Program-made: the position numbers and the translations under genes
NCBI GenBank assembly: GCA_028276365.1
Contig: JAPYWL010000061.1
Location: 1-6,324 of the forward strand
Direction of reading: 5' to 3'
DNA length: 6,324 nt
DNA from: Deltaproteobacteria bacterium
Lineage (GTDB): Bacteria > DRYD01
In this document: positions 2,914 to 5,868 of the stretch, piece by piece
Layout: each line of letters opens with the position of its first letter
Numbering within the stretch: position 1 is the first letter of the stretch
The notes under the pieces: generated by a model
Told to the model about the DNA's origin: nothing
The model's input: only the letters and a program-made list of their open reading frames with translations
Database searches by the model: none

Positions 2914-3036
2914 TTTTATAAATTATTCTACATCTTTTTTATAACAATTTACTCTTTTAATTAGATTCTTTTTTCATAGTATTTAACCTTTTTAATTGGA
3001 ATTATTTAATATTTTTAGTCTTAATTTTAAAGGAAT

Positions 3037-3134: not shown

Positions 3135-3518
3135 ATGAGTAAATACTCAATAGAGGATATAATAGAATTAGCTAATGATGGAACTTATAGGAAGGAATTG
3201 GATAATTTTGATGTAGTAGTTGAGGGAGGAAATCCTGGGTGTGGGGATATTGTTAAAATATATCTAAAAGTTGATGATAATCAAATAGTTAAGGCGAGTT
3301 TTATAGGTAGTGGTTGTACTATTAGTCAAGCATCTGCTAACTTATTGATCTATCATATTAATAGCAAAAAGATAAATGAAATAGAAAATTTAGGTATAGA
3401 TTTTATAAAACAAGAGTTAGGAGAACAATTTTATTTATTAAGACCTAATTGTGCATCCTTAGCTATTAGTGTTCTTAAAGCTGCTATTAAAAAATACTAT
3501 AGAATTAAAAATGTTTAA
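3135..3518 (+). CDS. NifU/IscU/SufU-type Fe-S cluster assembly scaffold protein
   Basis: A 127-residue cytoplasmic scaffold on which Fe-S clusters are built from iron and cysteine-derived sulfur before transfer to target proteins. The three ligand cysteines are in place: GGNPGCGD (Cys36, with conserved Asp38), GSGCTISQAS (Cys61) and RPNCASLAISVLKAAI (Cys106). The 45-residue step from Cys61 to Cys106 matches IscU rather than Firmicutes SufU, which has an insertion of about 18 residues. IscU's His before the last Cys is Asn105 here, and its LPPVK chaperone-binding motif is replaced by YLLRP, so this is neither a classical IscU nor SufU. No cysteine desulfurase (nifS/sufS), sufB or hscA lies beside it. 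Its end overlaps the flippase start by eight bases, which suggests co-transcription. The ATG is the only reasonable start; no Shine-Dalgarno is seen. Family is firm, precise subtype uncertain. Confidence 0.9.
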   Translation: MSKYSIEDIIELANDGTYRKELDNFDVVVEGGNPGCGDIVKIYLKVDDNQIVKASFIGSGCTISQASANLLIYHINSKKINEIENLGIDFIKQELGEQFYLLRPNCASLAISVLKAAIKKYYRIKNV

Positions 3519-4023
3519 CATCTTTCTAAAATATATTAATAGAATTTTACAATCAAATTTGTTTAAATTAACCTCTATATATACGGTTTCTAATATTATT
3601 AATGTTTCTATTCCTTTTTTATTATTACCTATTTTAACAAGATATTTAACTCCTTATGATTATGGGATATTGTCGATGTATGCTACATTATATAGTTTTT
3701 TTATTCAATTAGCTGCTTTCTCTACTTTTTCTTTTCCTTTTAATATTTGGTTTAAAGAAGATATTTTGAAAATAAAAAAAATCAATTTTAATGTTATGTT
3801 GTTGAATTTTTTATCTTTTTTTGTTATATTATTTATTTTATATATTTTAAAGGATCTGATTTTTTTTTATAGTAAATTAACTTTTATATGGTTATTTATA
3901 ATGGCTATTAATATACTTTTTGATAGTGCTATAGGTTTTGTTACTAATATATATAGGATGGAGGATAAGGTTTGGAACTTTGTTTATTTTAATATTTTTA
4001 GAAGCTTCTTAGTTTTTTTTTAG
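3511..4023 (+). CDS. Flippase N-terminal part (170 residues)
   Basis: Without slippage this is the whole product. It begins MFNIFLKYIN and has the diagnostic first-helix region of polysaccharide flippases, LLLPILTRYLTPYDYGILSMY (about residues 37-57), followed by several hydrophobic helices up to FRSFLVFF at the T run. The ATG at 3511 was chosen because it gives the normal family N-terminus; it overlaps the last eight bases of the Fe-S scaffold gene, and the open frame further upstream lies inside that gene's coding sequence. No Shine-Dalgarno is present, so translational coupling to the scaffold gene is likely. A protein ending here would have only part of the transmembrane bundle and would not be expected to work. 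Confidence 0.7.
   Translation: MFNIFLKYINRILQSNLFKLTSIYTVSNIINVSIPFLLLPILTRYLTPYDYGILSMYATLYSFFIQLAAFSTFSFPFNIWFKEDILKIKKINFNVMLLNFLSFFVILFILYILKDLIFFYSKLTFIWLFIMAINILFDSAIGFVTNIYRMEDKVWNFVYFNIFRSFLVFF
4013..4021 (+). other. T9 slippage site at the flippase frameshift
   Basis: Nine T follow G4012 and precede AG. In the first frame the codons are GTT TTT TTT TAG, so the run includes T-TTT-TTT (4014-4020), a homopolymeric form of the X-XXY-YYZ slippery heptamer, followed at once by a stop codon. Slipping back one base enters the frame that completes the protein. One added U by RNA polymerase slippage would do the same. A downstream stimulatory structure is not obvious. Confidence 0.55.
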
Positions 4024-4043
4024 TTATTTTATTTGTTGTAGTT

Positions 4044-4826
4044 TTGGGTTATAAATGGGAGGGTAGGGTATTAGCTCAAGTTTTTGTTAGTGTTATTTTT
4101 GGAATTATTTCTATTTATATTATATTTAAAAAATGGATTTTTTTTGAAGTAAAGGGAGATTATATTATACAGCTTCTTAAGTTTGGTATACCTCTGATTT
4201 TTTTTTCTATTTTCTACTTACTTATGTTTCATATTAATAGATTTATAGTAGCCAAATTTTTATCGTTAGAGGACTTGGGAATTCTAAATGTTAGTATTCA
4301 GTTAGGAGGTTTTATTGATTTAATAGCTTCTTCTTTTAATATTGCTTTTTTGCCTTGGATTTATAAAAATTTATCCAATATTGATAAGTTGCTAAGAGAT
4401 AATTTAAGTATTGCTTTAGATCTAAAAAGACGAATAGTTAAAATTATTTACTTATACGTTTTTAGTTTGTTCTTTATTTCATTAATAGTGTATTTTGTTT
4501 TTATTTTTATAATGAAATATTTTTTAGGACCTAGTTTTCATAAGGCTATTGAATTTTTACTAATTATTATTTTTGCATTTTACTTTAAAGCTTTATATTA
4601 TATTTTCTCTTATTTTATAGTATATACTGAAAAAACTATTATTTTAACTATTATAACAGTTATAACTGCTATTTTTAGTATCTTTTTAAGTTATTATTTA
4701 GTAATGTTTTTTGGAATCTGGGGAGCTGTTTATTCATTCTTTTTTACTTTTTTTATTTACTTTCTTATTACTTTCTTATTTACTATTAAAATCTATAAAT
4801 TACCTTGGTTTACAATAAAAACCTAA
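4044..4826 (+). CDS. Flippase C-terminal part
   Basis: This frame is open from the T run (sense from 4020) to TAA 4824-4826. The first possible start codon used here, TTG 4044, falls inside a conserved segment (VVVLGYKWEGR), has no ribosome binding site, and is unlikely to be a real start. The sequence has the second-half flippase pattern: LLKFGIPLIFF...NRFIVAKFLSLEDLGIL (a helix, then the conserved Arg loop), FLPWIYK, then four or five strongly hydrophobic helices including IITVITAIFSIFL and FFGIWGAVYSFFF. It is therefore the distal half of the preceding gene and not an independent protein. The next gene starts 40 bases later. Confidence 0.7.
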   Translation: MGYKWEGRVLAQVFVSVIFGIISIYIIFKKWIFFEVKGDYIIQLLKFGIPLIFFSIFYLLMFHINRFIVAKFLSLEDLGILNVSIQLGGFIDLIASSFNIAFLPWIYKNLSNIDKLLRDNLSIALDLKRRIVKIIYLYVFSLFFISLIVYFVFIFIMKYFLGPSFHKAIEFLLIIIFAFYFKALYYIFSYFIVYTEKTIILTIITVITAIFSIFLSYYLVMFFGIWGAVYSFFFTFFIYFLITFLFTIKIYKLPWFTIKT

Positions 4827-4866: not shown

Positions 4867-5868
4867 ATGTTTAGTGATATTATACTTTTTTTTAATGATT
4901 TTTTAAATTATATTAAATATTTAATAAAAAGTACGGAGTTTTTATTAAATTCAGTTGATAAAAGGATTGGATTTATTATTATTTTTATTTTTGGAACTAT
5001 ATTTGGTAGTTTTATTAATGTTTTAATATATAGATTACCTTTAGAAATAGATTTTATTTTTAAAAGTAGTTTTTGTCCAAAATGTGGAAATCCTATTAAA
5101 TGGTATCATAATATCCCATTAATTAGTTACATTATTTTAAAGGGTAGATGTTATTATTGTAAGGAAAAAATTAGTTTTCAGTATCCCATTGTTGAGTTTA
5201 TAAGTGGTTTAGTTTTTGGGTTACTTTATCTAAAATTTGGTGTTACTTGGGATTTCTTTGTTTTAGCTTTATTTTATATTATTTCACTACCTGTTATTGT
5301 TATAGATTTTAAGTATCAAATTATTCCAGATGAACTAACTATTGGGGGAATTGTTATCGGATTGATCTTAGCTTTATTAAGGAGTTTATTAAGTTTTCAA
5401 TTAGATAGTTCCATTAGTTTAGGTATATTTGATAGCTTAATGGCTATTATTGTTAATGTTTTGATATTTGTTATAATTTATTATTTATCATTTTTTATAT
5501 ATAAGAAGGAGGGGTTAGGGTTTGGTGATGTTAAATTAGCCGCTACTATTGGGTCATTTTTAGGGGTTTATCCTTCTTTAGTTTCTTTTTTCTTTTCTTT
5601 CCTTTTTGGTTCTATTTTAGGACTTCTTATTATGATTATTAATAAGATAATCAATTATAAAAAAGTTAATCTTTTAAAAAAATATGTTTTTTCTTCGGGA
5701 GATTATTTGAGTACAATAAGCATTATTTATGTAGTTAAAACTGATATAGATAAGAAAAATAGTGTATATATAGCATTTGGCCCTTTTATGATTTTAGGTG
5801 CTTGGTTTGCTATATTTTTTACCAATTTTATTTTAGATACTTTCTTTTTAACAGAATTAGGATTTTAA
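4867..5868 (+). CDS. Prepilin peptidase (type IV prepilin leader peptidase / methyltransferase, A24 family)
   Basis: A 333-residue polytopic inner-membrane aspartyl protease that cuts the leader of type IV pilins and pseudopilins and, in full-size members, N-methylates the new N-terminus. Motifs in order: GTIFGSFINVLIYRLP (43-58), a cytoplasmic CxxC pair typical of bifunctional enzymes (Cys70/Cys73 in CPKCG; Cys95/Cys98 in CYYC), the first catalytic Asp in VIDFKYQIIPDELT (Asp147) and the second in GFGDVKLAATIG (Asp221), and the closing IAFGPFMILGAWFA (302-314). It has about 35 residues before the first conserved helix and a charged loop near 262-300, both longer than minimal members. No pilin or pil ATPase genes are beside it. 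No Shine-Dalgarno precedes the ATG, so a later non-ATG start is possible but none is clearly better. Confidence 0.95.
   Translation: MFSDIILFFNDFLNYIKYLIKSTEFLLNSVDKRIGFIIIFIFGTIFGSFINVLIYRLPLEIDFIFKSSFCPKCGNPIKWYHNIPLISYIILKGRCYYCKEKISFQYPIVEFISGLVFGLLYLKFGVTWDFFVLALFYIISLPVIVIDFKYQIIPDELTIGGIVIGLILALLRSLLSFQLDSSISLGIFDSLMAIIVNVLIFVIIYYLSFFIYKKEGLGFGDVKLAATIGSFLGVYPSLVSFFFSFLFGSILGLLIMIINKIINYKKVNLLKKYVFSSGDYLSTISIIYVVKTDIDKKNSVYIAFGPFMILGAWFAIFFTNFILDTFFLTELGF

Follow-up and report, generated by a model that had tools for sequence, protein, structure and literature searches.

A polysaccharide flippase gene split at a run of nine T's, probably expressed through slippage-dependent recoding, and four further genes split alike in two species of an AT-rich deltaproteobacterial genus

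The window analyzed here is a whole contig (C35; 6,324 bases) of a 1.59-Mb genome (G000; 124 contigs; 87% complete). The genomes of its genus have a G+C content of 24%, with plentiful A and T runs, and sizes of 1.6 to 1.9 Mb. Flagellar genes are present; this statement is based on an FlgC-like protein (locus L185) that was recognized by eye. The window carries a gene for a Wzx-like polysaccharide flippase that is split by a −1 offset at a run of nine T's (T9). The features of the locus are as follows, with "the relative" denoting a second species of the same genus (G001; public contig CAKZQG010000002.1).

3135 to 3518, plus strand: NifU_N-domain (SufU/NifU-like) gene overlapping the flippase start; same neighbor in the relative
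3511 to 4023, plus strand: N-terminal half of the Wzx-like flippase, 0 frame, probable start at ATG 3511, based on the open reading frame (ORF) list, the Pfam match (5 to 133 of 274), and the aligned start in the relative (L041, GTG 1393); the frame is open upstream to GTG 3469
3860 to 3868, plus strand: in-frame T9 within the flippase, internal control; shrunk to four T's in the relative
4002 to 4826, plus strand: C-terminal half of the flippase, −1 frame (used from about 4023), TAA stop; own start codon not conserved
4013 to 4021, plus strand: T9 run, candidate slip site; homologous codon with the same T9 in the relative (L004/L041:1895-1903)
4021 to 4023, plus strand: TAG stop of the 0 frame adjoining the run; TGG in the relative and hence unconserved
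4198 to 4206, plus strand: in-frame T9 within the flippase, internal control; shrunk to five T's in the relative
4867 to 5868, plus strand: prepilin peptidase (A24) gene downstream of the flippase; same neighbor in the relative

In the 0 frame, the junction reads GTT TTT TTT TAG, with AG directly after the run, and a T TTT TTT heptamer lies in this frame at 4014 to 4020. In the −1 frame, no stop occurs between 4002 and the TAA at 4824 to 4826, and the sequence past the run reads ...TTA GTT ATT TTA TTT GTT.... Both halves match the PF01943 (Polysacc_synt) profile above its cutoff of 28.2 bits (33.5 bits for the first half, profile positions 5 to 133; 40.6 bits for the second half, positions 156 to 272). 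Since these positions are contiguous, the two halves represent one gene. Of the two candidate start codons, ATG 3511 and GTG 3469, the ATG is the more probable; it aligns with GTG 1393 of the relative. In the window, the flippase frame starts at this ATG before the NifU-type gene has ended (stop at 3516 to 3518), while in the relative the two genes lie apart and the flippase begins with GTG.

The flippase of the relative, whose second half shares 68 to 69% amino acid identity with that of the window, is likewise split by −1 at a T9, at the homologous codon. The bases around the run differ between the species (i.e., agT9agtt in the window and gcT9ggtt in the relative), and the gene order nitroreductase, NifU-type gene, flippase, and prepilin peptidase is common to both. 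An AGAAG motif, a candidate Shine-Dalgarno-like stimulator of ribosomal frameshifting, precedes the run in both species; the same bases encode Arg-Ser. The TAG that follows the run in the window is a TGG in the relative, where the 0 frame continues for some eight codons. It is therefore the T run that is conserved, and the stop is incidental. In a codon alignment of the two genes (dS of ~0.8), dN/dS was 0.23 upstream of the break (0 frame) and 0.24 downstream of it (−1 frame), which indicates that constraint on the downstream half matches that on the upstream half in both lineages. Both halves are thus under equal purifying selection after a long divergence, and no further stops were found in the flippase halves of either species. 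As judged from this pair of sequences, the split exceeds what chance would produce, as the second species has it at the homologous codon, again with nine T's, while the in-frame T9 runs within the same gene have eroded. A search of the sister genus with the second half as the query did not find the flippase.

The original prediction, which was made from the window's sequence, held that two flippase halves offset by one base join at T9 with a built-in heptamer, and the frames and the PF01943 matches confirm its coordinates, offset, and heptamer. It was also right that the remainder of the gene is undamaged (no other stops were seen) and that the other genes of the window end in TAA. It had proposed that the run be compared among relatives, which is where the T9 of the second species was found, and this conservation lends strong support to its proposal of slippage-dependent expression (by RNA polymerase or the ribosome). 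The adjacency of TAG to the heptamer, which it also put forward, is real in the window, but the argument built on it fails given the TGG of the relative.

A codon model, with long ORFs as its training set, was used to check every A or T run of at least 7 bases for a change of coding frame. The scan covered about half of each genome (~0.80 Mb for G000, ~0.96 Mb for G001), and the two genomes were scanned independently of each other. In these portions, the in-gene frame changes at runs of at least 9 were all −1 and fell into five genes, i.e., those for the flippase (T9), RecF (T10), a CCA/poly(A) nucleotidyltransferase (A10), a GT2 glycosyltransferase (T10), and an uncharacterized membrane protein (T9); this tally leaves out one A10 junction (L152), which was read as a gene boundary. 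Ortholog searches and direct reading showed that, for all five, the two species agree in the run at which the gene is split and in the length of that run. The four genes found in addition to the flippase, each of which is a single uninterrupted ORF across the homologous position in the sister genus, are located as follows.

L032/L120:895-904 (G000) and L097:514-523 (G001): recF, −1 at T10; TAA or TGA directly after the run; intact in the sister genus
L126/L034, minus strand, 2994-3003 (G000) and L139:5873-5882 (G001): CCA/poly(A)-type nucleotidyltransferase, −1 at A10
L160, minus strand, about 13238-13247 (G000) and L046, minus strand, 2774-2783 (G001): GT2 glycosyltransferase, −1 at T10 ahead of an NDGS(T/I)D motif
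L179:1491-1499 (G000) and L178, minus strand, 1491-1499 (G001): uncharacterized membrane protein, −1 at T9, after minD- and minE-like genes

The recF halves map contiguously on the RecF model TIGR00611 (positions 2 to 91 and 95 to 338), and the nucleotidyltransferase halves map, with weak scores, to positions 465 to 598 and 606 to 679 of the tRNA nucleotidyltransferase model NF041569. The nucleotidyltransferase break precedes, in both species, a DDPTR motif that follows the head domain. The GT2 assignment is backed by PF00535. A likeness of the fifth gene to DUF58 was noted by eye and was not adopted, as a Pfam search gave no confirmation. Very probably, at least five genes of this genus use the same arrangement (i.e., a −1 offset at T9, T10, or A10).

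Several other candidates were rejected. A pairwise comparison of ORFs returned mostly ordinary adjacent genes and antisense ORFs, and the splits at run junctions among the matches listed were those of the flippase and recF. The A7 and A8 junctions of the coding scan were mostly gene boundaries (e.g., L108), as was a T7 case (L140). A break at T7A6 in a gene for a flavin adenine dinucleotide (FAD)-dependent oxidoreductase of G001 (L084, minus strand, 15479-15485) was set aside as probable decay; in G000, what remains of the gene is a fragment containing a stop (L185:1495-1815), and in G002 (L184) the gene has internal stops. Apparent in-gene frame changes at A7 or A8 occurred in G001 only (L046 minus 5938, L089 plus 11931, L044 minus 9131, and L156 minus 4712), at sites with no ortholog in the examined half of G000. 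Loss of MutS was ruled out as a cause of the split sites, since MutS was found in both genomes.

CCA was encoded in 0 of 38 tRNA genes in the examined parts of both genomes (ARAGORN and inspection of the 3' ends), and the CCA/poly(A) nucleotidyltransferase was detected as one copy per genome, split in both. Together, these observations imply that a full-length product is needed. On this gene inventory, the split nucleotidyltransferase must be functional.

Homopolymers erode rapidly. Run length was kept in the ortholog for 2 of the 45 in-frame runs of at least 9 bases and for 5 of the 5 split runs (Fisher p = 9.9e-6, with sites taken as independent, partner runs located within 12 to 15 bases of the aligned codon, and few sites from one species pair). 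The 45 control sites comprise 27 from G000 and 20 from G001, two of which are common to both. Confirmed in-gene shifts were restricted to runs of at least 9 (8 instances versus 78 in-frame runs of such length), and no shift was confirmed as conserved among the coding runs of 7 to 8 bases (about 1,990). Conservation of a run and its length among homologs, a criterion named in an earlier study as a sign of purposeful slippage (PMC1088944), was thus observed at five sites in two species.

We consider it likely that the flippase gene is functional despite its split and that its expression relies on slippage-dependent recoding, mainly by RNA polymerase. A full-length protein would require either one added mRNA nucleotide or a −1 step of the ribosome. 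In the proposed course of events, the weak rU:dA hybrid at T9 would let RNA polymerase slip, and some of the flippase mRNAs would gain one extra U. In these mRNAs, the first half would read through into the second, giving a full-length transporter of ~438 residues, while the faithful transcript would give a product of ~170 residues ending at the run. We infer from the sequences the occurrence of slippage, its mainly transcriptional rather than ribosomal nature, and its efficiency. RNA polymerase is favored because the confirmed sites are all 9 to 10 bases long although runs of 7 to 8 already offer the heptamer, because no downstream RNA structure was clearly better than shuffled sequences (z of +0.43, −0.95, −1.43, +0.87, and −1.32 for five sequences, in folds modeled without pseudoknots), and because the stop after the run is unconserved. 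According to published surveys, many bacterial genomes show selection against slippage-prone runs once these reach nine nucleotides (PMC1088944), and the confinement of the shifts to runs of at least 9 agrees with this threshold for polymerase slippage.

Why the sites persist is a separate question. As has been suggested for insect endosymbionts, they may be compensated frameshifts of a neutral kind, in which indels caused by replication slippage are fixed by drift, polymerase slippage makes them tolerable, and the split state confers no advantage. We give this explanation somewhat less than an even chance. As it assumes the same molecular mechanism and competes with selection only over the reason for persistence, its probability overlaps that of the slippage-dependent expression preferred above. 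The low G+C content, the abundance of runs, and the precedents in Blochmannia and Buchnera (PMC3017870, PMC5009743) speak for it, as does the observation that coding in-frame runs of at least 10 are roughly as common as shifted ones. However, the lengths of neutral runs should drift, and a run able to gain or lose a base should have drifted back in frame. The retention of both offset and length at 5 of 5 split sites across a dS of ~0.8, when 43 of 45 in-frame runs were not kept, therefore argues against tolerated noise. The converse reading is possible but rated lower by us, namely, that several chromosomal genes, including an essential tRNA maturation enzyme and RecF, are held out of frame by selection, so that slippage would set a fixed and probably reduced yield of full-length product.

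Programmed −1 ribosomal frameshifting on T TTT TTT or A AAA AAA, without polymerase slippage, would account for two features of the data, since one of these heptamers is present in the correct phase at every split site and the shift is always −1. Nevertheless, it appears improbable as the sole mechanism. Seven bases would suffice for the ribosome, yet the confirmed sites have 9 to 10, and coding runs of 7 to 8 are >20 times more numerous; the downstream structure is also not consistent, and the stop past the heptamer varies. Slippage of the ribosome and of the polymerase could both contribute.

The original prediction had also allowed for an assembly error or a recent one-base deletion, and the finding of the same run in a diverged species and of four further genes split alike disfavors both. 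If the true runs were one base longer and the genes intact, as could be suspected because both genomes are metagenome assemblies and homopolymers are error-prone on some platforms, the same five runs would have to be one base short in both species, whose assemblies are independent. Miscalled bases, moreover, have no reason to persist at 5 of 5 sites when 2 of 45 ordinary runs do, T9 and A9 runs with strong coding on both sides are otherwise in frame (73 of 76), and the G001 data set seems to be a short-read one. We regard such an error as highly unlikely. Surface-glycan genes with homopolymers are typical of phase variation, and a flippase with a T run fits this pattern. On/off switching of the flippase by changes of DNA run length between cells, which had likewise been suggested, is just as unlikely, since the run lengths are identical in two diverged species, MutS is present, and the same pattern is seen in recF and the CCA/poly(A) nucleotidyltransferase gene, neither of which is a likely target of switching. 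The splits in these housekeeping and other genes also speak against the original emphasis on a surface-glycan gene.

The reading frames overlap as they do in translationally coupled genes, and two separately translated polypeptides might in principle assemble into one transporter or enzyme. The first 59 to 60 codons of the second frame contain no ATG, GTG, or TTG in recF of G000 and in the nucleotidyltransferase and GT2 genes of both species, and the sole candidate in recF of G001 is a TTG that arises where the run ends. The candidates in the flippase (TTG 4044 in the window and GTG 1917 in G001) are at different codons and lack a Shine-Dalgarno sequence. With start codons missing or unmatched, separate translation of two subunits is very unlikely. 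A recent loss-of-function mutation or a decaying pseudogene, to which the single premature stop might point, can be dismissed almost entirely given a split common to two species, equal dN/dS on either side of the break, and no other stops.

This kind of arrangement is known from Shigella mxiE, Blochmannia, and Buchnera, while the genes and the lineage appear to be new; the titles and abstracts of the open-access literature, in a nonexhaustive search, contained no report of slippage in a bacterial flippase gene. In mxiE of Shigella flexneri, transcriptional slippage at a T run is reported to make a longer product (cited in PMC1088944 and PMC3711429). As in mxiE, two ORFs overlap at a T run here, an extra nontemplated nucleotide would fuse the frames, and the slipped product would be the longer one. 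The mxiE case concerns a single, experimentally demonstrated regulator, whereas the present one concerns a flippase and four further genes of an uncultured bacterium known from its sequence. In Blochmannia and Buchnera, as many as eight genes of one genome are interrupted at poly(A) or poly(T) runs, some of the splits are common between species, and 12 to 50% of the transcripts were corrected in the tested cases (PMC3017870, PMC5009743). The similarity extends to AT-rich genomes, to housekeeping genes split at runs, and to splits found in more than one species. However, those bacteria are endosymbionts with genomes of <0.8 Mb, in contrast to the 1.6- to 1.9-Mb genomes with flagellar genes considered here, in which all five confirmed sites are kept at identical length and the genes (flippase, recF, and the CCA-type enzyme) are new to the phenomenon. 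In Citrobacter rodentium, the interrupted gene tssM1 is rescued by polymerase slippage at A11, at a level of ~20% (PMC4256274). The rescue of a premature interruption at a run is the point of likeness; tssM1 is one gene, its slippage was measured, and its two length variants were shown to be both needed. Finally, dnaX of Thermus thermophilus slips at nine A's (PMC1088944). It resembles the present cases as a housekeeping gene of DNA metabolism with a nine-base run, but there the unslipped mRNA encodes the full-length product, and here the slipped mRNA would do so.

Automatic annotation would label these five genes as broken, while their conservation indicates that they work, and that a cell whose CCA-adding enzyme is split in the DNA still finishes its tRNAs. 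The retention test between two species is applicable to other AT-rich uncultured lineages, and the five-gene set offers a natural test of whether slippage sites are tolerated by drift or kept by selection. If the reading based on selection is true, a genus outside the known endosymbionts would use slippage as a means of gene expression across its genome, and the sites would be more than tolerated accidents.
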